From Lysobacter sp. cf310 (lineage in GTDB: Bacteria > Pseudomonadota > Gammaproteobacteria > Xanthomonadales > Xanthomonadaceae), in the NCBI RefSeq assembly GCF_900114355.1, contig NZ_FOSS01000001.1, forward strand, positions 442,044-506,043: a DNA stretch of 64,000 nt. Reading direction: 5' to 3'. Made by a program: the position numbers and the translations under genes. Below are positions 39,534-51,926 of this stretch, one piece after another. How positions within the stretch are numbered: position 1 is the stretch's first letter; each line of letters starts with the position of its first letter. Under the pieces are notes generated by a model, which was not told the origin of the DNA, did not search any database, and saw only the letters and a list, made by a program, of their open reading frames with translations.

Positions 39534-40298
<765 letters not shown>

Positions 40299-40299
40299 C

Positions 40300-41595
40300 A
40301 TGAGCGCCTTGCTCGACTCCTTCTCCGACGCGCTGAACCCGCTGCTGCAGCGCCAGCAGTACCACGGCCTGCGCCGCGTGCAGGCGATGGAAGCCGCGCT
40401 TCAGGCCGGCCTGCCGCATGCGCGCAGCGAAGCCTGGAAGTACACCCCGCTGCGCAACCTGGAGCGCCGCCGCTACGCTGCGCCGCAGCCCGGCGTGTTC
40501 GATGCCGCGCTGCTGGCGACGATCCCGGCGCCGCGCCTGGTGTTCAACAACGGCCGCTACGACGCCGCGCTGTCCGACCTCAGCGGCCTGGCCGCCGGGG
40601 TCACCCTGCAGCCGCTGTCGCAGCTGCTGGCGGACGAGGACGCGCGCGCCTCCAACTTCCTCGAACGCCGCTACGAGCGCCCGGAAGAAGTGTTCGCCCG
40701 CGTCAACGCCGCCCTGGCCGAAGACGGCGCCGTGCTCAAGGTCGACAGCGGCGCGCAAGGCGGCACGGTGCGCTTGGTGTTCGTGGGTGCTCCGACGCAA
40801 GGCGGTGATGCGGCCTGGCACCTGCGCAACCTGATCGAACTGCAGGAAGGCGCCTCCCTGACCGTGATCGAGCACCAGCTCGGCGGCGGCGAGCACAGCC
40901 ACCTGGGCAACAGCCTCAGCCACGTGCACCTGTCGCCGCGCGCGACGCTCGCGCATGCGCGGGTGCAGGACGAAGCCATTGGCGCCGTGTCGATCGCGCG
41001 CACCGACGCCGTACTCTCGCGCGAGTCGGTCTATCGCCGCCTCGATCTGGAGCTGGGCGCCACGCTGTCGCGTCACGAACTCAACGTCGCCCTGCACGGC
41101 GAGGCCGCGCAACTGCATGCCAACGGCGTGCTGCTGGCCACCGGCAAGCGCCACCTCGATACCCGTCTGGGCATCGACCACGTCGGCCGCGACAGCCGCT
41201 GCGACCTGGTCTGGCGCGGCATGGGCGCCGGCCGCTCGCGCGCCGCCTTCCACGGCGGCATCCTGATCCGCGAAGGCGCCGACGGCACCGCCGCGATGCT
41301 GTCCAACAAGAACCTGCTGCTGTCCGAGGGCGCCGAGATCGACACTCAACCGGTGCTGGAGATCCACGCCGACGAGGTCCAGGCCGCGCACGGCGCGACC
41401 GTGGGCCAACTCGACGCCAACGCCCTGTTCTACCTGCGTTCGCGCGGCGTGCCCGCCGAGCAGGCGCGCTCCCTGCTGACGGCGGCGTTCTGTCGCGAAA
41501 CCCTGTCCGTGTTCGACGACGCCGAGTTGCGCGCCGCCCTGGAAACGCGTCTGGACGCGGCCCTGAACGGCCTGGACGAGGGCGCTGCCGCATGA
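40300..41595 (+). CDS. sufD: Fe-S cluster assembly protein SufD
   Basis: A 431-residue SufD with the conserved N-terminal helix (SEAWKYTPLRNLERRRY) and C-terminal beta-helix (GATVGQLDANALFYLRSRG, then EQARSLLTAAFCRE). It partners SufB in the SufBC2D complex and is needed for iron entry. Its stop overlaps the sufS ATG (ATGA), showing translational coupling. Confidence 0.96.
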   Translation: MSALLDSFSDALNPLLQRQQYHGLRRVQAMEAALQAGLPHARSEAWKYTPLRNLERRRYAAPQPGVFDAALLATIPAPRLVFNNGRYDAALSDLSGLAAGVTLQPLSQLLADEDARASNFLERRYERPEEVFARVNAALAEDGAVLKVDSGAQGGTVRLVFVGAPTQGGDAAWHLRNLIELQEGASLTVIEHQLGGGEHSHLGNSLSHVHLSPRATLAHARVQDEAIGAVSIARTDAVLSRESVYRRLDLELGATLSRHELNVALHGEAAQLHANGVLLATGKRHLDTRLGIDHVGRDSRCDLVWRGMGAGRSRAAFHGGILIREGADGTAAMLSNKNLLLSEGAEIDTQPVLEIHADEVQAAHGATVGQLDANALFYLRSRGVPAEQARSLLTAAFCRETLSVFDDAELRAALETRLDAALNGLDEGAAA

Positions 41596-42824
41596 ACGCC
41601 CCCGCCGTCGCCATCGACTGGAACGCCGTACGCGCCGACTTCCCGCTGCTCACGCGCGAAGTCCACGGCAAGCCGCTGATCTATTTCGACTCGGCCAACA
41701 CCGGCCAGAAACCGGAAGCGGTGATCGCGGCGGTCGACGACTTCTACCGCCGCCACAACGCCAACGTCAGCCGCGCCGTGCACGCGCTGGGCACCGAGGC
41801 CACCGAGGCCTACGAAGGCGCGCGCACCAAGCTGGCCAAGTTCCTCAACGTGCGCGCCGACGAGCTGGTGCTGTGCAGCGGCACCACCTTCGCGCTGAAT
41901 CTGGTCGCATACTCCTGGGCGCTGCCGCGGCTGCGCCCGGGCGACGCGATCGTGCTCACGCGCATGGAGCACCACGCCAACATCGTGCCCTGGCAGTTGG
42001 TGGCCCAACGCACCGGCGCCACCATCAAGGTCGCCGAGATCGACGAGCTCGGCCAGCTCGATCTGCCCCAGCTGTATTCGCTGCTGACCCCGGAAGTGAA
42101 GCTGCTGGCCCTGACCCATGTCTCCAATGTGCTGGGCACGGTCAATCCGGTGCGCGAGATCTGCCGCGAGGCGCGCAAGCGCGGCATCGTCAGCTTGATC
42201 GACGGCTCGCAGGCCGCGCCGCACCGTGCGCTCGACATCGCCGCGATCGGTTGCGATTTCTACGCGATCACCGGTCACAAGATGAACGGACCGACCGGCA
42301 CCGGCGCGCTGTGGGCGCGCCGCGAGCACCTGGCGCAGATGCCGCCCTTCCTCGGCGGCGGCGAGATGATCAAGGAAGTGCGCTTCGAAGGCACGGTGTT
42401 CAACGATGCCCCGCACAAGTTCGAGGCCGGCACCCCCAACATCGCCGGCTTCGTCGGCCTGGGCGCGGCGGTGGACTATCTGTCGGCGCTGGGCATGAGC
42501 CACATCGAAGCGCGCGAACAGGCCCTGCTCGACTACGCCACCCGCGCGCTGTCGGAGGTGCCCGGCCTGCGCATCTTCGGCCGCGCGCCGGAGAAGGCGG
42601 CGGTGATCAGCTTCCTGGTCGAGGGCGCGCACGCGCACGACCTGGCCACCCTGCTGGATCTGGAAGGCGTGGCGATCCGCTCCGGCCACCACTGCGCGCA
42701 CCCGCTGATGCATCATTTCGGGGTGCCCGCGACCTGCCGCGCCTCGCTGGCTTACTACAATACGTTCGACGAGGTCGACGCCTTCGTCGCCGCTTTGACC
42801 AAGGTACGCACGCTGCTCGCATGA
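41592..42824 (+). CDS. sufS: SufS cysteine desulfurase (group II)
   Basis: A 410-residue PLP enzyme that takes sulfur from cysteine for Fe-S assembly. The PLP lysine is K230 (ITGHKMNGPTG) and the persulfide cysteine is C368 in RSGHHCAHPLM, the group II form. SufE, the usual sulfur shuttle, is not in the window. Overlaps of 4 bp with sufD and with the next GNAT gene show tight coupling. Confidence 0.97.
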   Translation: MNAPAVAIDWNAVRADFPLLTREVHGKPLIYFDSANTGQKPEAVIAAVDDFYRRHNANVSRAVHALGTEATEAYEGARTKLAKFLNVRADELVLCSGTTFALNLVAYSWALPRLRPGDAIVLTRMEHHANIVPWQLVAQRTGATIKVAEIDELGQLDLPQLYSLLTPEVKLLALTHVSNVLGTVNPVREICREARKRGIVSLIDGSQAAPHRALDIAAIGCDFYAITGHKMNGPTGTGALWARREHLAQMPPFLGGGEMIKEVRFEGTVFNDAPHKFEAGTPNIAGFVGLGAAVDYLSALGMSHIEAREQALLDYATRALSEVPGLRIFGRAPEKAAVISFLVEGAHAHDLATLLDLEGVAIRSGHHCAHPLMHHFGVPATCRASLAYYNTFDEVDAFVAALTKVRTLLA

Positions 42825-43369
42825 ACGACACGCCCCTGAGTTTCCGCCCCGCCACCCATGCCGATACCGAGGCCCTGATCGCGCTGGTCGAGTCCGCCTA
42901 CCGCGGCGACAGCAGCCGGGTCGGCTGGACCACCGAGGCCGACCTGCTCGGCGGCCGCCGCACCGGCGCCGACGACATCTCCGAGTGCATCGACCGCCCG
43001 CAGAGCGTGCTGCTGATCGCCGAGCGCGCCAGCGCCGACGGCGGCGCCGCGGAGCTGCTGGCCTGCGCGCATGTCGCGGTGGAGGACGGCGCCGGCTACT
43101 TCGGCCTGTTCTCGGTGCGCCCGAACCTGCAGGGCGGCGGCATCGGCAAGATCGTCATCGACGAGGCCGAGCGCATCGCGCGCGAGGACTGGAAGCTGCC
43201 GGCCATGCGCATGACCGTGATCGACGTGCGCGAGGAACTGATCGCGTACTACGTGCGCCGTGGCTACCGCCGCACCGGCATCATCAAGCCGTTCCCCTAC
43301 GGCGACGCGCGCTTCGGCGACCCCAAGCGCGACGATCTGCGTTTCGAAGTTCTGGAAAAACTGTTCTGA
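42821..43369 (+). CDS. GNAT-family N-acetyltransferase in suf operon
   Basis: A 182-residue GNAT protein. The acetyl-CoA site is FSVRPNLQGGGIGKIVIDEAER, followed by MRMTVIDVREELIAYYVRRGY, typical of the fold. The acceptor is unknown. It overlaps sufS by 4 bp (ATGA), so it is translated together with the SUF proteins and may modify one of them or a small metabolite (inference). Confidence 0.9.
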   Translation: MNDTPLSFRPATHADTEALIALVESAYRGDSSRVGWTTEADLLGGRRTGADDISECIDRPQSVLLIAERASADGGAAELLACAHVAVEDGAGYFGLFSVRPNLQGGGIGKIVIDEAERIAREDWKLPAMRMTVIDVREELIAYYVRRGYRRTGIIKPFPYGDARFGDPKRDDLRFEVLEKLF

Positions 43370-43415
43370 GCGCCGCACCAGCCAGGCCATCGGCCAGCCA
43401 CTAGAGAGACACGCC

Positions 43416-43739
43416 ATGGGCGACTGGGTTTTCGTTTGCGCCACTTCGCAACTGCTGCCGGGCGAGTCCGCCGTGGCCTGGGACGGCGATACGCCGATCC
43501 TGGTCTGCAACTACGACGGCGACTACTACGCGCTGGAGGACAAGTGCTCGCACGAGGACTTCGAGCTCTCGGCCGGCAACTACGACGGCGAAGAGGCCAC
43601 GGTCGAGTGCGTGCTGCACGGGGCCAAGTTCGACATCCGCGACGGGCGCCCGCTGTGCGCGCCCGCCTACAGTCCGGTGACCAAGTTCCCGGTCAAGGTC
43701 GAGAACGACGGGGTCTGGACCCGCGACGACCGCGCCTGA
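43416..43739 (+). CDS. Rieske [2Fe-2S] ferredoxin-like protein
   Basis: A 107-residue single-domain Rieske protein with ligands C44-x-H46 (DKCSHEDF) and C65-x2-H68 (ECVLHGAKF). It lacks a membrane anchor and so is cytoplasmic, like ferredoxin components of aromatic dioxygenases (NirD/BphF-like). Small Rieske proteins are frequently the last gene of SUF operons; a role as electron carrier or cluster client is likely. The start ATG is at 43416. Confidence 0.92.
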   Translation: MGDWVFVCATSQLLPGESAVAWDGDTPILVCNYDGDYYALEDKCSHEDFELSAGNYDGEEATVECVLHGAKFDIRDGRPLCAPAYSPVTKFPVKVENDGVWTRDDRA

Positions 43740-44030
43740 GGCGACAGCGGATGCCCACCGGGCTCTGAGCCCCGTCCCACAACGCCCTGATCCCCGGCCG
43801 CCACTGCGGCATCCCGCGCACCACGCCATCCTGACGGCCTCTTCGGGCCCGCGCTTGGGTCCGCTTGCGCGGTCGTCCAGCCGCGCCCCAGCGCCGCTTT
43901 TTGCCCAGCTCGCACGCGAATTGCGAACTGCGCGTTCACTTTTCGTTGCAAATGCGAATCGCTCTCATTAATATTCCCGGTTGACGCAGCCCTAGCCGGC
44001 CGCACCCCCATCGTCATTCCTGGATTCCTC
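43740..44030. other. Intergenic region upstream of siderophore receptor
   Basis: 291 bp without a gene. Its right half falls sharply in G+C (TTTTCGTTGCAAATGCG..) and carries the Fur box at 43951-43969. Confidence 0.6.
43951..43969 (+). promoter_or_regulatory. Fur box
   Basis: The 19-bp dyad AATGCGAATCGCTCTCATT matches the Fur pattern (AATGxGA..TCxCATT), 62 bp before the ATG of the TonB-dependent receptor. Iron repression of the following operon is expected. Confidence 0.75.
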
Positions 44031-46352
44031 ATGTCGACCACGAAGTTCGTCGTGTCGCCGCTCGCCGGTGCACTTGCCCTCGCCCTCAGCGTTCCCACCA
44101 TCGCGGCGCCGGCGCCGGATCCCCAAGCCAAGGATCTGGACGGCGTCGAAGTCCATGGCGTGAAGGTGCTCAAGGCCAGTTCGGGCAAGTACACCGCGCC
44201 GCTGCGCGACACCACGCAGACGATCACCGTGATCGACCGCAGCACCATCGACGGCCAGAACCTGCTGTCGCTGCAGGACATCCTCGCGACCCTGCCCGGC
44301 ATCACCTTCGGCGCCGGCGAAGGCGGCGGCGGCTTCGGCGACAAGATCAACCTGCGCGGCTTCGACGCCAGCAACGACATCACCGTCGACGGCGTGCGCG
44401 ACAGCGGTCTGTACAGCCGCACCGATCCGTTCAACCTGGAATCGGTGGAAGTCATCAACGGCGCCAACTCGGTCTACTCCGGCGCGGGCTCGGTGGCCGG
44501 CACCATCAACCTGGTCAGCAAGTCCGCCGGCGCGACCGAATTCAACCGCGCCAGCATCGCCGCCGGCACCGACGACTACGCCCGCGTCACCGCCGACAGC
44601 AACTTCCTGCTGGGCGAAAGCAGCGCGTTCCGCATCAACGTGATGGCGCACCAGAACGACATCCCGGGCCGCGACGTCGAGCGCAACGAGCGCTGGGGCA
44701 TCGCGCCCTCGCTGAGCTTCGGCCTGGGCAGCGACACCACCTGGACCTTGAACTACGTCCACCAGGAAGACGACAACATCCCCGAATACGGCGTGCCGTT
44801 CTTCAACGGCGGCCCGTTGCCCGGCATCGATCCGTCGACCTACTACGGCTACAAGAACATCGACAAGCAGGAAATCGAGTACGACTCGCTGACCTCGATC
44901 CTGGAGCACCGCTTCAGCGACACCATGAAGGTGCGCAACCTGACGCGCTGGCAACAGGTCGACCAGTTCTCGCTGGTGGACGCGGTGCAGGGCACCTGGT
45001 GCATGCCCAACGGCCTGACTCCGCTCGGCGTCGCCTGCCCGGCCGGCGTGGCCCCGGGCCGCTACCTGCCCAGCGGCCCGCGCGGTTTCGGTCGCGACAC
45101 GCGCAATACCACCCTCTACACCCAGACCGACCTGACCACCGAGTTCAACACCGGTTCGATGCAGCACACCCTGGTCGCGGGCTTCTCGGTGATGCACGAG
45201 AGCTTCGACCTCGACACCACCAGCGATTTCCGCAACGCCAACGGCACCAACCCGTACATCAACGGCCTACCGACGATGGACATGTTCCATCCGGACAACG
45301 TCTACCGCGGCCCGATCAACCGCACCCTGACCGGCCGCACCGAAGGCGAACTCGACAATCAGGCCGTCTACGTCTTCGACACGATCAAGTTCGGCGAACA
45401 GTGGCTGCTGAGCCTGGGCGCGCGCTACGAGCACAACGAAGGCAAGACCAACACCGCCAACGTGGTGCTGGCGCCGACCACCGTGGGCGCGCCGCTGCCG
45501 GCGCAGCCGATCGGCACGGTCACCGGCTACGGCGTGCCGGCCAAGAACACCGACGATCTGTTCTCCTACCGCGCCGGCCTGGTCTACAAGCCGGTCGAGA
45601 ACGTCAGCGTGTATGCCGCCTACGGCAACTCCAAGACGCCGTCCAAGGCCTCGGTCAACGGGTCCTGCACGCTGACCAGCACCACCGGCACCGCCAACTG
45701 CACGGTCGATCCGGAAACCGCGGTCAACTACGAAATCGGCGCCAAGTGGGATCTGTTCGAGGGTCGTCTGGCGCTGACCGGTTCGCTGTTCCGCAACGAT
45801 CGCGAGAACTACAAGGTCTCCGACCCGGGCAACCCGAACAATCCGACCGGCGCGCAGCAGCTCGACGGCCGCGCGCGCGTCGACGGCGCGATGCTGGGCG
45901 TGTCCGGCCTGCTGACCGACCATTGGGCGGTCTACGCCAACTACGCCTACCTGGACAGCGAAGTGGTGCAGGGCGTGTCCGACCGTCAGGCCGGCCTGGG
46001 CCTGGACTACACCAAGGGCGATCGCCTGCTGAACGTGCCGGAGCACTCCTTCAGCCTGTGGACCACCTACGACCTGTCGCCCAAGTGGCAGATCGGCTAC
46101 GGCGCGACCTACCAGGGCAAGATCTGGCTGACCCAGCACAGCGCGACCAACCTCAACGGCCCGCTGGTGACCGCGGACAGCTATTGGACCCATCGCGCGA
46201 TGGTCAACTACAAGATCAACCGCAACGCCGCCCTCCAGCTCAACGTCAGCAATCTGGCCGACGAGGAGTACTACACCCGCATCCGCAACAACGGCTGGGC
46301 CACGCCGGGCGAGGCGCGCCAGGTGGTATTGAGCGCCAACTTCACGTTCTAA
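44031..46352 (+). CDS. TonB-dependent ferric-siderophore receptor
   Basis: A 773-residue outer-membrane receptor. The signal peptide ends about VPTIAAP. Next come the TonB-box region ([13 protein letters not shown]), the plug domain ([59 protein letters not shown]) and a 22-strand barrel ending in LSANFTF with a terminal Phe. It resembles the Fiu/CirA class of catecholate receptors; the actual ligand is not readable. It heads the operon that includes piuC, as fiu does in other bacteria. Confidence 0.95.
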
Positions 46353-46379
46353 TCCGGACTTCCATAGTCCGCGCGCGCC

Positions 46380-46397
46380 GCCCGGGACCTCCCGGGC
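46380..46397. terminator. Hairpin between receptor and piuC
   Basis: Perfect arms GCCCGGGA (46380-46387) and TCCCGGGC (46390-46397) lie 28 nt after the receptor stop and 20 nt before the piuC ATG. There is no T-run, so partial termination or mRNA processing, lowering downstream expression, is more likely than a full stop. Confidence 0.5.
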
Positions 46398-46416
46398 GGC
46401 CGCATTGAGGAAGACC

Positions 46417-47103
46417 ATGCTGCTGCACGTGCCCAAAGTCCTCAGCCCCGAACAGGTCGCGCACTGCCGCGAGCGGCTGGCGCAGGCCGGCTGGGCCGAC
46501 GGCCGCATCACCGCCGGCTACCAGTCGGCCAAGGCCAAGGACAACGCGCAGCTGCCGGAGAACGACCCGGTCGCGCGCGAGCTGGGCGCGATCATCCTCG
46601 ACGCCCTGGCCAAGAACCCGACCTTCTTTTCCGCGGCCCTGCCGCAGCGGGTGTTCCCGCCGCTGTTCAACCGCTACGAAGGCGGCCAGGCCTTCGGCTT
46701 CCATGTCGACAACGCGATCCGCTACGACCGCAGCCGCGGCGGCATGGACACCGTGCGCACCGATCTGTCGGCGACCCTGTTCCTGAGCGCGCCGGAGGAA
46801 TACGACGGCGGCGAGCTGGTGATCGAGGACACCTACGGCAGCCACAGCATCAAGCTGGCGGCCGGCGATCTGGTGCTCTACCCCGGCACCAGCCTGCACA
46901 AGGTCACCCCGGTCACGCGCGGCGCGCGCCTGGCCTCGTTCTTCTGGATCCAGAGCCTGCTGCGCGAGGACGCGCAACGCCGGTTGATGTTCGAACTCGA
47001 CGTCTCGATCCGCCGCCTGACCGCCGACGTGCCCGAGCATCCGGCGCTGGTGCAACTGACCGGCGTGTACCACAACCTGCTGCGCCGCTGGAGCGAACCT
47101 TGA
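46417..47103 (+). CDS. piuC: PKHD-type Fe(II)/2-oxoglutarate hydroxylase
   Basis: A 228-residue dioxygenase of the PiuC/YbiX type. The iron triad is H96, D98 (FGFHVDNA) and H161 (TSLHKVTPV), and the 2-oxoglutarate arginine is R171 (RGARLAS). The family often follows TonB siderophore receptors; its substrate is uncertain but may be the siderophore. The ATG at 46417 has a good GAGGA site 5-6 nt upstream, and an in-frame TTG lies four codons earlier. The stop overlaps the next gene. Confidence 0.93.
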
Positions 47104-47762
47104 GCGCCAGCGACGCCGCCACGCGTGCGCGCGAATCCGCGGTCAAGGCCGGCGATCCGAATCGGCGCGCGTACTGGCTCAAGACCCTGCACCGCTGGCA
47201 CTGGATCAGCGCGGCGCTGAGCCTGTTCGCGCTGCTGATCTTCGCGGCCACCGGCATCACCCTCAACCACGCCGCCCAGATCGAGGCCGAGCCGCAGGTG
47301 GTCACGGTCAAGGACACCCTGCCGGCCAGCGCCCTGCGCGGCCTGCAAGGCGAGCGCGCGGCCGATGCGCCGCTGCCGGCCGGCGCGCGCGACTGGATCG
47401 AAGCGCAGCTGGGCGTGAATACGGAAGGCCGCAGCGTGGAATGGTCGGACGGCGAGGTCTATGTCTCGTTGCCGCGTCCCGGCGGCGACGCCTGGCTCAG
47501 CATCGACCGCGAAAGCGGCGCGATCGAATACGAAGTCACCCGCCGCGGCTGGATCGCCTGGCTCAACGACCTGCACAAGGGCCGCAACACCGGCGCGGTC
47601 TGGCGCTGGTTCATCGATCTGTTCGCGGTCGCCTGCCTGCTGTTCGCGCTCACCGGCCTGTGGCTGCTGCAGCTGCATGCGCGCCAGCGCGGCAAGACCT
47701 GGCCGCTGGTCGCCGCGGGCGTGGCGATACCGGCGCTGCTGATCGTCCTTTTCATGCATTGA
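47100..47762 (+). CDS. PepSY-associated transmembrane protein
   Basis: A 220-residue inner-membrane protein with two segments, one at residues 34-52 ([20 protein letters not shown]) and the other at 175-200 ([20 protein letters not shown]), around a periplasmic PepSY-like domain. A last helix lies at 205-220. It has no in-frame ATG before the hydrophobic part; the likely start is the TTG at 47100, overlapping the piuC stop by 3 nt. PepSY-TM proteins in siderophore loci are thought to take part in ferric-siderophore reduction. The conserved histidines LHRWHW and LNHAAQ could bind heme (inference). Confidence 0.82.
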
Positions 47763-47778
47763 ACCCCTGGAGACCGCG

Positions 47779-48300
47779 ATGAAGTTGTTGCCCCGCACCG
47801 CACTGATCGTCGCCCTGGCGATGCCGGTGTCGGCGTTCGCCGCCGACCTCGACCTCAGCATCGAAATCCCGCGCCTGAAGGTCGCCGAATACCACCGTCC
47901 CTACGTTGCGGCCTGGATCGAACGTCCCGACAACAGCGTCGCCGCCGACCTGGCGGTCTGGTACGACGTGGACATGAAGAACGGCGAAGGCACCAAGTGG
48001 CTGAAGGACATCCGCCAGTGGTGGCGGCGCAGCGGCCGCAGCCTGAAGATGCCGGTCGACGGCGTCAGCGGCGCGACCCGCGCGGTCGGTCAGCACACCC
48101 TGAATTTCAAGGGCGGCAGCAAGCCCTTGGCCGGCCTCGCGCCGGGCCAGTACACCCTGGTGGTCGAGGCCGCGCGCGAAGTCGGCGGCCGCGAACTGCT
48201 GAGCATTCCGTTCCAGTGGCCGGCCAAGGGCGGCGCGCAGACCCTGTCGGCGCAGGGCAAGACCGAACTGGGCGCGGTGCGTCTGGCGGTCAAGCCTTGA
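47779..48300 (+). CDS. DUF2271 periplasmic protein with flavinylation motif
   Basis: A 173-residue exported protein (signal peptide ending AMPVSAFAA). The sequence DGVSGAT (residues 94-100) matches the motif in which ApbE attaches FMN to a Thr in NqrC and RnfG; the Thr here is T100 (codon 48076-48078). With an apbE gene two genes downstream, this is a strong candidate flavoprotein that carries electrons in the periplasm. A Trp-rich region (QWWRR) precedes the motif. It is encoded 16 bp after the PepSY gene. Confidence 0.88.
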   Translation: MKLLPRTALIVALAMPVSAFAADLDLSIEIPRLKVAEYHRPYVAAWIERPDNSVAADLAVWYDVDMKNGEGTKWLKDIRQWWRRSGRSLKMPVDGVSGATRAVGQHTLNFKGGSKPLAGLAPGQYTLVVEAAREVGGRELLSIPFQWPAKGGAQTLSAQGKTELGAVRLAVKP

Positions 48301-48416
48301 GATTCGGGATTCGAGATTCGCGTAAGCGCTAAATCGCGCTCCCGGTTTCGACCCGCATTCCACGCCATCGCTGTTACGAATCCCGAATCCCTATTCTCCA
48401 ATCCCGGATTTCAACC
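48301..48416. repeat. Inverted repeat between DUF2271 and DUF4198 genes
   Basis: Perfect 13-bp arms GATTCGGGATTCG (48301-48313) and CGAATCCCGAATC (48377-48389) with extra half-copies (GAGATTCG; CCAATCCCGG) form a long imperfect stem inside the operon. This is a separate family from the GGAGCGGCG and CCCTTCTCCCGC repeats. Confidence 0.75.
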
Positions 48417-49226
48417 ATGAAAATCAAACTCATCGCCGCCGCCGCGATCGCCGCGCTCGGCTTCGCCACCTCGGCGCAGGCGCACAAGGCCTGGCTGCAG
48501 CCGTCGCAGACCGTGTTCTCCGACAAGGGCGCCTGGCTCACGGTCGACGCGGCCGTGTCCAACGACTTGTTCTACTTCAACCACGTGCCGCTGCCGCTGG
48601 AACGCCTGCGCATCACCGCGCCGGACGGCAGCGCGGTGCAGGCGCAGAACGCGTCCACCGGCAAGCTGCGCAGCGTGTTCGACGTCGAGCTGGCGCAGGA
48701 AGGCACCTACAAGATCGCGATGGTCAACGAGGGCATGTTCGCCAGCTACAAGCTCGGCGGCGAAGCCAAGCGCTGGCGCGGCAAGGCCGAGGACTTCAAG
48801 GCCGGCATCCCGGCCGGCGCGACCGAAGTCAGCGCCTCGGAAAGCCTGGGCCGGGTCGAGACCTTCGCCACCGTCGGCTCGCCGACCACCGGCGTGTTCA
48901 AGGCCAGCGGCAAGGGCATCGAGCTGGTGCCGGTGACCCACCCCAACGATTTGTTCGCCGGCGAGAAGGCCACCTTCCAGCTGCTCGTCGACGGCAAGCC
49001 GGCCGCGGGCCTGAAGATCGAAGTGGTGCCGGGCGCGACCCGCTACCGCGATCAGCAGAACGAGATCCACCTGACCAGCGGCGCCGACGGCAAGTTCGAA
49101 GTGAACTGGCCGCAGGCCGGCATGTACTGGCTGGAGACCGCCAGCGAGGACGCCAAGACCACGCTGCCGGACGCCAAGCAGCGCCGCCTGAGCTACGTCG
49201 CCGTGTTCGAAGTGCTGTCGCAGTAA
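48417..49226 (+). CDS. DUF4198 periplasmic protein
   Basis: A 269-residue protein with signal peptide MKIKLIAAAAIAALGFATSAQA. Cleavage exposes HKAWLQPS, so the mature chain begins with histidine, as in several metal-binding beta-sandwich proteins (CopC/NikK-type). The rest is beta-rich, with a C-terminal Ig-like domain (NDLFAGEKATFQLLVDGKP). DUF4198 proteins often accompany TonB receptors and metal transport. It may bind metal or the ferric chelate near the flavoprotein (inference). Confidence 0.85.
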   Translation: MKIKLIAAAAIAALGFATSAQAHKAWLQPSQTVFSDKGAWLTVDAAVSNDLFYFNHVPLPLERLRITAPDGSAVQAQNASTGKLRSVFDVELAQEGTYKIAMVNEGMFASYKLGGEAKRWRGKAEDFKAGIPAGATEVSASESLGRVETFATVGSPTTGVFKASGKGIELVPVTHPNDLFAGEKATFQLLVDGKPAAGLKIEVVPGATRYRDQQNEIHLTSGADGKFEVNWPQAGMYWLETASEDAKTTLPDAKQRRLSYVAVFEVLSQ

Positions 49227-49236
49227 ACCGACCGGC

Positions 49237-50250
49237 ATGCAACCGCCTCCGATCCGCATGAGCTGGAGCGGCGCGAGCTGGGGCGGCAGCGCCCCGGCCG
49301 CGCGCGCCGTGCATGCGCTCGCGGGGCACAGCATGGGCACGCAATGGTCGGTGAAGCTGGTGGCCGACGCCGCCGCGCTGCCGGAACTGGAGCGCGGCAT
49401 CCAGGCCCGTCTGGATGAAGTCGTGGCCCAGATGAGCACCTGGGAGGCCGACTCCGACCTCAGCCGCTACAACCGCGCCGAGGCCGGCAGCGTGCAGGCC
49501 CTGCCCGACGGTTTCCATGCGGTGCTGGACGCGGCCTTGAAGCTCGCCGCCGACAGCGGCGGTGCCTACGACCCCACGATCGGGCCGCTGGTCAATCTGT
49601 GGGGCTTCGGCCCCGACGGCGGACGTGAGTCCGCGCCGTCGGACGCCGAGATCGCCCAGGCGCAGGCGCGCGTGGGCTGGCAGCGGGTCGGCTTCGATCC
49701 GCACGCGCGCACCGCGACCCAGGCCGGCGGCAGTTATCTGGATTTCTCCTCGATCGCCAAAGGCTACGGTGTCGATCGCGTGGCCGAGTGGCTGAGCGAA
49801 CGCGGCATCGGCGCCTTCCTGGTCGAGGTCGGCGGCGAACTCTACGGCCGCGGCCGCAAGCCCGACGGCGGCGCCTGGCGGATCGCGGTCGAGCGCCCCT
49901 CGGACGACACCGGCGACGACGGCACCGCGGTGCTGGCGCTGGACGGTTTCGCGATCGCGACCTCGGGCGACTACCGCCGCTACTTCGATCACGACGGCCG
50001 CCGTTATTCGCACACCGTGGATCCGCGCAGCGGCCGACCCGTGACGCATGCCCTGGCTTCGGTCAGCGTGCTGCACCCGCAATGCATGCAGGCCGACGGC
50101 CTGGCCACCGTGCTGGCGGTGCTGGGCCCGCAGGCCGGCATGGCCTATGCCAACCGTCGCCAGCTCGCGGCGATGTTCGTGCTGCACGACGGCGACGGCT
50201 TCCTGACCCGGATGACGCCGGCCTTCATCGCGCGCCAGCGCGCGGCTTGA
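49237..50250 (+). CDS. apbE: ApbE-type FAD:protein FMN transferase
   Basis: A 337-residue ApbE with all its motifs: HSMGTQWSV, STWEADSDLSRYN, GGAYDPTIGPLVNLWGFG, DFSSIAKGYGVD, VGGELYGRG, TSGDYRRYF and HTVDPRSGRPV. The enzyme moves FMN from FAD to Ser/Thr of target proteins; DUF2271 upstream is the likely target. Unusually I see no signal peptide or lipobox at this ATG (MQPPPIRMSWSGASWGG), while ApbE normally works in the periplasm. A longer start is not available within the 10-bp gap, so export is unexplained. Confidence 0.93.
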   Translation: MQPPPIRMSWSGASWGGSAPAARAVHALAGHSMGTQWSVKLVADAAALPELERGIQARLDEVVAQMSTWEADSDLSRYNRAEAGSVQALPDGFHAVLDAALKLAADSGGAYDPTIGPLVNLWGFGPDGGRESAPSDAEIAQAQARVGWQRVGFDPHARTATQAGGSYLDFSSIAKGYGVDRVAEWLSERGIGAFLVEVGGELYGRGRKPDGGAWRIAVERPSDDTGDDGTAVLALDGFAIATSGDYRRYFDHDGRRYSHTVDPRSGRPVTHALASVSVLHPQCMQADGLATVLAVLGPQAGMAYANRRQLAAMFVLHDGDGFLTRMTPAFIARQRAA

Positions 50251-50270
50251 ACACGCATACGAAGTCGCAG

Positions 50271-51926
50271 ATGCATCCGTCCGAATCCTCCTTACGCACG
50301 CGGCGCTTCGGCGCCAGCACCCTCGGCAACGCGCTGGTGCTGATCGCGCTGATGGTGCTGGCCTATCTGCTGCTGCGCTGGCAGGCCGAGCCGGTGCGTT
50401 GGCTCGCGCCGGAGCGCGCGCGCCTGCTGTGGGCGGCCGGCCTGGCGACGGCCTACGCCGGTTTCGTCGGCGGCATCGCCTGGGTGCGCGCGCGCCGCGC
50501 GCGTGCGCAGGCCCTGCCGCGCGCCTCCGCGGACGGCGCCCACGATTGGCTGGTCGCGTTCGCCAGCCAGACCGGTCACGCCGAATTCCTGGCGCGCCGC
50601 AGCTGGCAGACCCTGGCCGACAGCGGCGTCGGCGCCGATATCCGCATGCTGGGCACGCTGGACGCGTCCGCGCTCGCGCGCTACCACCAGGTTTTGTTCG
50701 TGGTCAGCACCACCGGCGAGGGCGATGCGCCGGACACGGCGGCGCGCTTCGTGCGCGTGGTGTTGGGCGCCTCCGCCGCCCTGCCCGGCTTGCGCTACGG
50801 CGTGTTGGCGCTGGGCGACCGTCAGTACGAACGGTTCTGCAGCTTCGGCCACCGCCTCGACCATTGGCTGCGCCACGCCGGCGCCGAGCCGATGTTCGAC
50901 CTGGTCGAAGTCGACGACGGCGACCCCGGCGCGCTGCGCCATTGGCAGCATCATCTGGGCCTGCTCGCGGGGCATACCGAACTGCCCGACTGGAGCGCGC
51001 CTTCATATCGGCCGTGGCGTCTGAGCGAACGCGCGCAGCTCAATCCCGGCAGCGTTGGCGGCCCGGCGTTCCATGTCGCGCTCACGCCCGAGAATGCGGC
51101 CGACCTGCAATGGCAGGCCGGCGATATCGCCGAGATCGGTCCGCGCAACGGCGAGGCCGATGTGGCCGCGTGGCTGCTCGCCGCGAATCAGGACGGCACG
51201 GCCACGGTCGACGCGAACGGCGAAGCCGACACGCTGGCCGCGCTGTTGCGGCGTTCGCGCTTGCCGGACGCGACGGCGATGCAGGCGCTGGCGCCGCAGG
51301 CCGTCGCCGATGCGCTGCAGTCCTTGCCGCATCGCGAGTACTCGATCGCCTCGTTGCCCGCCGACGGCGGCCTGCAGTTGCTGGTGCGGCAGATGCGCCA
51401 GCCCGACGGACGCCTGGGCAGCGGCAGCGGCTGGCTGACCGCCCACGCAGGCGTCGGCGAACGCATCGACCTGCGCATCCGCGCCAATCCCTCCTTCCAC
51501 GCGCCGGCCGACGCACGGCCGATGATCCTGATCGGCAACGGCACCGGCATCGCCGGCCTGCGCGCGCTGCTGAAGACCCGCGCCGCCGCCGGGCATACGC
51601 GCAACTGGCTGCTGTTCGGCGAACGCAGCGCGGCGCACGACTACCACTATCGCGACGAGCTCGAAGCCTGGCTGCGCGACGGCGCCATCGAACGCATCGA
51701 CCTGGCGTTCTCGCGCGACGGCAGCGAACGCGTGTACGTGCAGCAGCGCCTGCGCGAGCACAGCGCGCGCGTGCGCGAATGGCTGGACGGCGGGGCGGCG
51801 GTTTACGTCTGCGGCAGCCTGGAAGGCATGGCGCCGGCGGTGGATGCGGTGCTACGCGAGATCGTGGGATTGGAGGCGTTGGAAGCGATGGCGCTGGATG
51901 GGCGGTATCGGCGCGACGTGTACTGA
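50271..51926 (+). CDS. Membrane-anchored flavodoxin/FNR-type reductase
   Basis: A 551-residue CysJ-like flavoprotein. Two N-terminal hydrophobic helices (LGNALVLIALMVLAYLLL and LLWAAGLATAYAGFVGGIAW) anchor it. Next come a flavodoxin domain (ASQTGHAEFL, STTGEGDAPD), an FAD domain (REYSIASL) and an NADPH domain (IGNGTGIAGL, VYVCGSLEGM), with C-terminal DVY as in CysJ. It probably takes electrons from cytoplasmic NADPH to a membrane partner such as the PepSY protein. It ends the operon 20 bp after apbE. The ATG at 50271 gives a hydrophilic start; the frame is open further upstream. Confidence 0.88.
   Translation: MHPSESSLRTRRFGASTLGNALVLIALMVLAYLLLRWQAEPVRWLAPERARLLWAAGLATAYAGFVGGIAWVRARRARAQALPRASADGAHDWLVAFASQTGHAEFLARRSWQTLADSGVGADIRMLGTLDASALARYHQVLFVVSTTGEGDAPDTAARFVRVVLGASAALPGLRYGVLALGDRQYERFCSFGHRLDHWLRHAGAEPMFDLVEVDDGDPGALRHWQHHLGLLAGHTELPDWSAPSYRPWRLSERAQLNPGSVGGPAFHVALTPENAADLQWQAGDIAEIGPRNGEADVAAWLLAANQDGTATVDANGEADTLAALLRRSRLPDATAMQALAPQAVADALQSLPHREYSIASLPADGGLQLLVRQMRQPDGRLGSGSGWLTAHAGVGERIDLRIRANPSFHAPADARPMILIGNGTGIAGLRALLKTRAAAGHTRNWLLFGERSAAHDYHYRDELEAWLRDGAIERIDLAFSRDGSERVYVQQRLREHSARVREWLDGGAAVYVCGSLEGMAPAVDAVLREIVGLEALEAMALDGRYRRDVY

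Follow-up and report, generated by a model that had tools for sequence, protein, structure and literature searches.

The operon at positions 43951-51926 of a 64,000-nt stretch of the Lysobacter sp. cf310 genome (family Xanthomonadaceae; contig NZ_FOSS01000001.1, positions 442,044 to 506,043 of the forward strand; the whole stretch is from now on referred to as the window) is in our judgement likely to be a Fur-repressed iron-acquisition operon made of two known modules, a receptor/PiuC pair and a cassette that would pass electrons from reduced nicotinamide adenine dinucleotide phosphate (NADPH) to DUF2271 for Fe(III) reduction, with DUF4198, FeoB and a cytoplasmic loading of flavin by ApbE. 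The part that specialists might not expect is ApbE, the flavin adenine dinucleotide (FAD):protein flavin mononucleotide (FMN) transferase, which has no visible signal peptide and is encoded next to a predicted flavin acceptor with a Sec-type leader; attachment of FMN before export is most likely the simplest resolution of this pairing. A first-pass annotation of the DNA had described a Fur box followed by genes for a TonB receptor, PiuC, PepSY, DUF2271, DUF4198, ApbE and a reductase, and all seven were found on one strand in that order behind a Fur-box-like site. Its interpretation held in part: sequence and conservation agree with Fur control, the gene families and the electron path, but not with an ApbE acting outside the cytoplasm, since the operon ApbE lacks a leader, which the annotation had not mentioned, and gives the only PF02424 match in a genome whose completeness is rated at 100%. 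The features are:

43951-43969, + strand: Fur-box-like site AATGCGAATCGCTCTCATT, ~60 bases ahead of the receptor start, with three mismatches to the consensus that we assume
44031-46352, + strand: TonB-dependent siderophore-type outer membrane receptor, Fiu/PiuA/CciT-like (TIGR01783, 241.1 bits, cut-off 223.5)
46417-47103, + strand: PiuC/CciO-type Fe(II)/2-oxoglutarate dioxygenase (NF003975, 371.5 bits, cut-off 180; PF18331, PF13640; PKHD_C)
47100-47762, + strand: PepSY_TM_like_2 membrane protein with three helices (PF16357, 262.6 bits; PF03929, 42.9 bits, cut-off 28.8)
47779-48300, + strand: DUF2271, exported, predicted flavin acceptor (PF10029, 172.9 bits), leader-like N-terminus without twin arginine
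48058-48078, + strand: codons of the acceptor motif DGVSGAT (Asp94-Thr100 of DUF2271)
48301-48416, no strand: intergenic stretch with a long inverted repeat (fold of 48295-48420)
48417-49226, + strand: DUF4198, exported, probable periplasmic metal-binding protein, mature N-terminal His23 (PF10670, 197.6 bits)
49237-50250, + strand: ApbE FAD:protein FMN transferase without visible signal peptide (PF02424, 296.4 bits)
TTG 50247 or ATG 50271 to 51926, + strand: membrane-anchored flavodoxin/FAD/NADPH reductase, CysJ/P450-reductase-like (PF00258 and PF00175 above cut-off, PF00667 below)

The leaderless ApbE and the predicted flavin acceptor DUF2271

The ApbE of the window begins with MQPPPIRMSW, its first start codon lying 15 codons past an in-frame stop, and contains no hydrophobic stretch. 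A position outside the cytosol, usual for ApbE but no part of the published definition of PepSY-like systems, is not predicted for it by hydropathy. The residues S243, H259 and D287 were invariant in 67 of 67 sequences and probably correspond, shifted by two, to the triad of V. cholerae ApbE given in a review (here and below, published work is cited from the accessible parts of each source). DUF2271, judged by hydropathy and inspection, has a Sec-type leader, so that at least one predicted target of the system carries a signal peptide. The window motif fits the [S/T]GA[S/T] of PepSY-like flavinylation systems, the motif at which a DUF2271 has been flavinylated (PMC8238504), many relatives having GPT, and Asp94 and Thr100 were invariant in a 21-sequence alignment (A1). 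The closest named DUF2271, from Lysobacter sp. Root916, is 99% identical.

Relatives were searched for with DUF2271, which was found in 76 of 149 family genomes and above cut-off in 13 of 369 genomes of the class and 65 of 398 of the phylum. From the family 80 of 85 matched places were fetched (leaving out the own genome, G064 and three below cut-off), comprising 70 clusters of the window type (type 1), five with fused ApbE-DUF2271 and five of a third type with a long reductase. Outside the family 60 of 68 places above cut-off were fetched (leaving out G185, G813, G715, two of G795 and the second places of G497, G888 and G623), and 46 of these loci carry a type-1 DUF2271 by profile. Among the 71 type-1 family clusters, window included and chosen by DUF2271, PepSY was present in 71, the reductase in 70 (with that of L069 truncated), DUF4198 in 69 and ApbE in 68 (67 by tblastn, the one of L046 recovered afterwards). 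The core of the cluster forms a stable unit.

To call a leader, the mean Kyte-Doolittle hydropathy over the 12 residues upstream of the ApbE core was used with a cut-off of 2.0, picked after the data had been seen, and an ApbE was counted as beside a type-1 DUF2271, by its profile, when within ~1.5 kb. After removing identical rows, 128 of 148 ApbEs beside a type-1 DUF2271 were leaderless compared to 8 of 52 not beside one, the corresponding counts being 122/148 and 5/52 at a cut-off of 1.6 and 129/148 and 21/52 at 2.4. The 52 consist of 25 of the 30 loci that scored best in 100 phylum genomes, together with the non-cluster ApbEs found in 23 chosen genomes. Leaderless ApbEs make up 54 of the 68 in family clusters, 25 of the 26 from outside the family and 54 of the 61 in named clusters (the last partly overlapping the family set); the cluster ApbE of Caulobacter segnis (L338) is leaderless, and so are all 11 third-type ApbEs from outside the family, or 16 of 16 when the five from the family are added. 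Forty-five genomes were searched for further ApbEs and with the leader-bearing G128 set aside, 39 of the 44 with a leaderless cluster ApbE showed no other ApbE match. The 20 genomes outside the family with an ApbE-less cluster all have an ApbE elsewhere, with a hydrophobic N-terminus scoring at least 1.9, a score that the leaderless cluster ApbE of L204 also reaches.

That most PepSY/DUF2271 iron-reduction systems with an ApbE of their own use a cytosolic enzyme, loading FMN before or during Sec export, is a generalisation we put forward tentatively and with slightly less than even confidence. Against the leader contrast, 20 of the 148 cluster ApbEs carry a leader, including those of Lysobacter chinensis (L278) and L. 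defluvii (L292). The rows are related, so that Fisher values for the contrast serve for description only; a FastTree tree of 210 rows places the type-1-adjacent ApbEs on one side of one branch, with the leader state changing nine times, and only few independent events therefore lie behind the contrast. Flavinylation of the precursor in the cytosol makes chemical sense, as a leaderless DUF2271 was flavinylated by a co-expressed leaderless ApbE in E. coli (PMC8238504) and a seven-residue tag is enough for ApbE in cells (PMC12052999); Sec export of the flavinylated chain is the unproven step. A literature search, with supplements and most subscription journals outside its reach, gave no account of a leaderless ApbE with DUF2271 or of flavinylation prior to export.

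If instead DUF2271 were flavinylated in the periplasm as usual, ApbE would have to be exported by a route invisible in its sequence. Most bacterial ApbEs are secreted according to a 2025 review, whose cytosolic examples have targets that are themselves cytosolic or fused to the enzyme, but the window ApbE lacks a hydrophobic N-terminus and has the in-frame stop close upstream, and we find such a route unlikely. In none of the 71 clusters does a twin arginine occur among the first 15 residues of DUF2271, which argues against a piggyback export of ApbE and by which Tat export of DUF2271 itself was ruled out. A second, exported ApbE in the genome was likewise ruled out by the single PF02424 match.

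The leaderless ApbE could also serve another, cytosolic target with DUF2271 working unflavinylated. What speaks for this is that GPT replaces GAT in 47 of the 68 ApbE-bearing family clusters and that ApbE is leaderless in all 47, but all 70 family sites and 45 of the 46 outside retain the acceptor threonine (the remaining one has serine), and the window itself has GAT. No conserved flavinylation motif was found in PepSY, DUF4198 or the reductase, which were rejected as the true target, and PF04205, PF03116 and PF12094, the other target families searched, are unmatched in the genome. A different target is in our opinion quite improbable, and loading of DUF2271 in the cytoplasm remains the preferred reading. 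The proline variants of the motif, mostly DGVTGPT, occur in 48 of 70 family sites, 7 of 46 outside and 15 of 80 named ones, these sets overlapping, and accompany leaderless ApbEs wherever an ApbE was found, leaderless ApbEs being common with GAT too, as in the window. A tree test of the proline variant against leader loss was not significant, with three independent pairs on supported branches of which none or one differ in leader. The idea that GPT marks a lost flavin site was dropped because the alignment shows Asp and Thr retained.

Some further variants were observed among the fetched loci. In L101, L103, L104, L105 and L106, near DUF4198 and a TonB receptor, ApbE and DUF2271 form a single frame 519-678 codons long whose N-terminus is leader-like (hydropathy scores 1.7-2.7). 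In L069 a deletion runs from DUF4198 through ApbE and takes with it the 5' part of the reductase; a search of that genome gave no ApbE match. At L099:10667-11700 the third-type ApbE match is split across two reading frames, possibly by a frameshift or a sequencing error. Leaderless ApbEs from outside the family (L166, L174, L190, L285, L330, L338) have a common N-terminal RVLIP-like stretch. Lysobacter niastensis (L063 / L277), near the genus of the window, has a GAT-type cluster and the four other fetched g45 genomes (L077, L082, L087, L089) are of the GPT type, a pattern that may reflect cluster transfer.

The proposed path of electrons and iron

In the proposed mechanism a receptor of the Fiu/PiuA/CciT type would carry a ferric chelate across the outer membrane, while PiuC would act in the cytoplasm on that ligand or its pathway. 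Electrons from NADPH would be taken up in the cytoplasm by the anchored flavodoxin/FNR reductase, pass through the inner membrane via haem held by the PepSY protein and reach an FMN attached covalently to Thr100 of periplasmic DUF2271, which would reduce Fe(III). DUF4198, binding metal through its N-terminal histidine, may take up or hand on the released Fe(II), which FeoB would import; a FeoB-type protein (FeoB_C match) that could do so is encoded elsewhere in the genome. Given that ApbE has no leader, it would most probably load DUF2271 with FMN in the cytoplasm, ahead of export. The electron path given in the first-pass annotation is not a new proposal but that of the published PepSY-like model, and appears plausible from the sequence; the acceptor may be a ferric siderophore or another form of Fe(III).

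The PepSY protein has three helices in 71 of 71 family members and conserved histidines at H34, H57, H159 and H220, with H34 and H159 present in 115 of 115 sequences. Its structure model has a pLDDT of 89, and a sequence search of the PDB gave no match at E values up to 1. A PF03929 score above cut-off together with conserved histidines, both found here, is what we take, partly by assumption, to mark PepSY_TM haem proteins such as FoxB. Helices in the 70 family orthologues of the reductase number two in 46, one in 12, none in nine and three in three; of the two-helix anchor suggested by the first-pass annotation the first helix is clear in the window and the second falls just below the hydropathy cut-off. 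The nearest solved relatives of the reductase are CysJ and cytochrome P450 reductase, and it may work like a diflavin NADPH reductase despite scoring below the CysJ equivalog cut-off (TIGR01931, 242.2 against 668.15).

When analysing DUF4198, the first residue after the apparent leader (cleavage site by eye) was histidine, His23 in the window, in 114 of 114 sequences, and H175 was present in 109. Searching the PDB by sequence only gave two weak matches (0.0075 and 0.012), both Zcp entries, while the structure model (pLDDT 92) matches metal-bound Zcp entries (9mhm) with a best E of 1.2e-14 and the nickel-bound DUF4198 9gcb with E 5.5e-10 and TMq 0.61. Both thus have their fold in common with the Lysobacter model, and the N-terminal histidine recurs in the family of 9gcb, where nickel is bound by this residue together with His18 (PMC12537917, 2025). 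These likenesses suggest that the Lysobacter DUF4198 would bind metal, perhaps Fe(II) given its context. Unlike the nickel-binding 9gcb it sits in an iron context. That the cassette handles another metal, e.g. Ni, Co or Cu, agrees with the Ni, Co, Cu or Zn bound by solved DUF4198 relatives and with a Bordetella PepSY_TM protein linked to copper enzymes, but the Fur-like site makes it very improbable, as does the control of these genes by iron in Caulobacter (PMC3751524) and Alteromonas (PMC7190382).

For the receptor the Fiu equivalog NF007349 is the best family by score, but with 449.2 against a cut-off of 686 the protein is not Fiu itself. It adjoins a PKHD-type dioxygenase, as siderophore-type receptors do in the CciT-CciO and PiuA-PiuC pairs.

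Regulation and arrangement of the operon

Across the 64 kb, the Fur-box-like site is the single place that matches AATGAGAATNATTCTCATT, which we take to be the Fur consensus, with up to three mismatches (it has exactly three), and none of 100 shuffles gave such a match. Scored against a 19-base consensus that is likewise our assumption, the region upstream of the receptor contains a 19-mer with at least 12 of 19 matching bases in 41 of 57 family loci; the window reaches 12/19, a score attained by ~3% of 60 rough shuffles. Sites with at least 11/19 before PepSY were found in 12 of 21 clusters with PepSY apart from PiuC, in 9 of 30 where the two are contiguous and in 7 of 20 without PiuC upstream, counts judged too weak for a separate Fur-like site before PepSY.

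The TTG start of PepSY overlaps the PiuC stop by four bases and the TTG at 50247 of the reductase overlaps the ApbE stop. The single gap in the otherwise tight cluster consists of the 116 bases at 48301-48416, between DUF2271 and DUF4198; the fold of 48295-48420 has a minimum free energy of -37.5 kcal/mol (z -2.84, 2 of 200 shuffles being equally low). A scan for sigma-70 promoters revealed no site. Upstream, 40216-43739 contains a GNAT gene, a gene for a small Rieske protein and two genes that by eye resemble sufD and sufS. Within 6.5 kb before the cluster the GNAT gene was found in 42 and the Rieske gene in 43 of 71 family clusters, and with the suf-like genes they indicate that iron uptake adjoins Fe-S assembly.

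Known systems and significance

Meheust et al. 2021 (PMC8238504) described 3220 PepSY-like clusters, 2833 with DUF2271, 1500 with DUF4198 and 231 with a TonB receptor, and already proposed iron reduction for them, siderophore iron included. The Lysobacter operon, where a PF16357/PF03929 protein is clustered with ApbE and DUF2271, has the same components as these systems, i.e. a PepSY-like protein, DUF2271 with [S/T]GA[S/T], DUF4198, ApbE and sometimes a TonB receptor, but differs in its leaderless ApbE and in having the NADPH reductase as a separate anchored protein (1077 of the PepSY-like genes in that study carry an NAD-binding domain). FoxB and HiuABC are PepSY proteins for which a role in reducing ferric siderophores at the inner membrane has been proposed; neither DUF2271 nor ApbE is named alongside HiuABC in the accessible text (PMC12424826).

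The receptor/PiuC pair resembles CciT-CciO, Fiu-YbiX and PiuA-PiuC, where a Fiu-type receptor likewise stands beside a 2-oxoglutarate/Fe(II) dioxygenase under Fur regulation, and was defined as cciT-cciO in Caulobacter (PMC12004947); unlike that pair, it runs directly into the PepSY cassette. Caulobacter CC_3059-3063 / CCNA_03155-03159 comprises a PepSY transporter, DUF2271, DUF4198, ApbE and a CysJ-like (sulfite reductase) flavoprotein in the same order (PMC3751524, PMC12004947). For CC_3059-3063 a table lists values of 12 to 51, which the accompanying text interprets as higher expression under iron limitation and in a fur mutant (PMC3751524), and insertions in this module reduce fitness in EDTA (PMC12004947). 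In S. maltophilia a receptor, PiuC and PepSY with close locus numbers (SMLT_RS05535-05570) are among predicted Fur targets in a table from RegPrecise (PMC6240677), apparently the orthologous locus, its orthology and contiguity being taken from names and numbers only. Genes for DUF4198 and DUF2271 in Alteromonas are described only near iron-responsive receptors in the available text (PMC7190382). With these parallels the Lysobacter operon belongs to a known kind.

Evenly balanced is the view that the second module is a general periplasmic ferric reductase feeding FeoB, not specific to the receptor's ligand, and that the modules share only Fur control, which is compatible with most of the mechanism set out above. 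The Caulobacter five-gene module, unlike the one in Lysobacter, is numbered far from cciT-cciO and so unjoined to it, both loci being Fur targets. A same-strand receptor is present in 58 and PiuC in 55 of the 71 family clusters (within the fetched stretches, some of which stop at contig ends), whereas PepSY-DUF2271 is retained, and in 6 of 80 named loci (L292, L309, L311, L314, L319, L350) another receptor lies between PiuC and PepSY. The four-base overlap of PiuC and PepSY in the window speaks against this view, as it argues for co-transcription of the modules.

Read as a Fur-repressed operon of two modules, the locus is a further example, from Lysobacter, of a known way of acquiring iron, and the new question is where the flavin is attached. 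If FMN is attached before export, the accepted order of export followed by flavin would be reversed, covalent flavoproteins would cross the Sec channel loaded with their cofactor, and neither a periplasmic supply of FAD nor its export would be needed. Surveys that require a signal peptide on ApbE would then miss many such enzymes.

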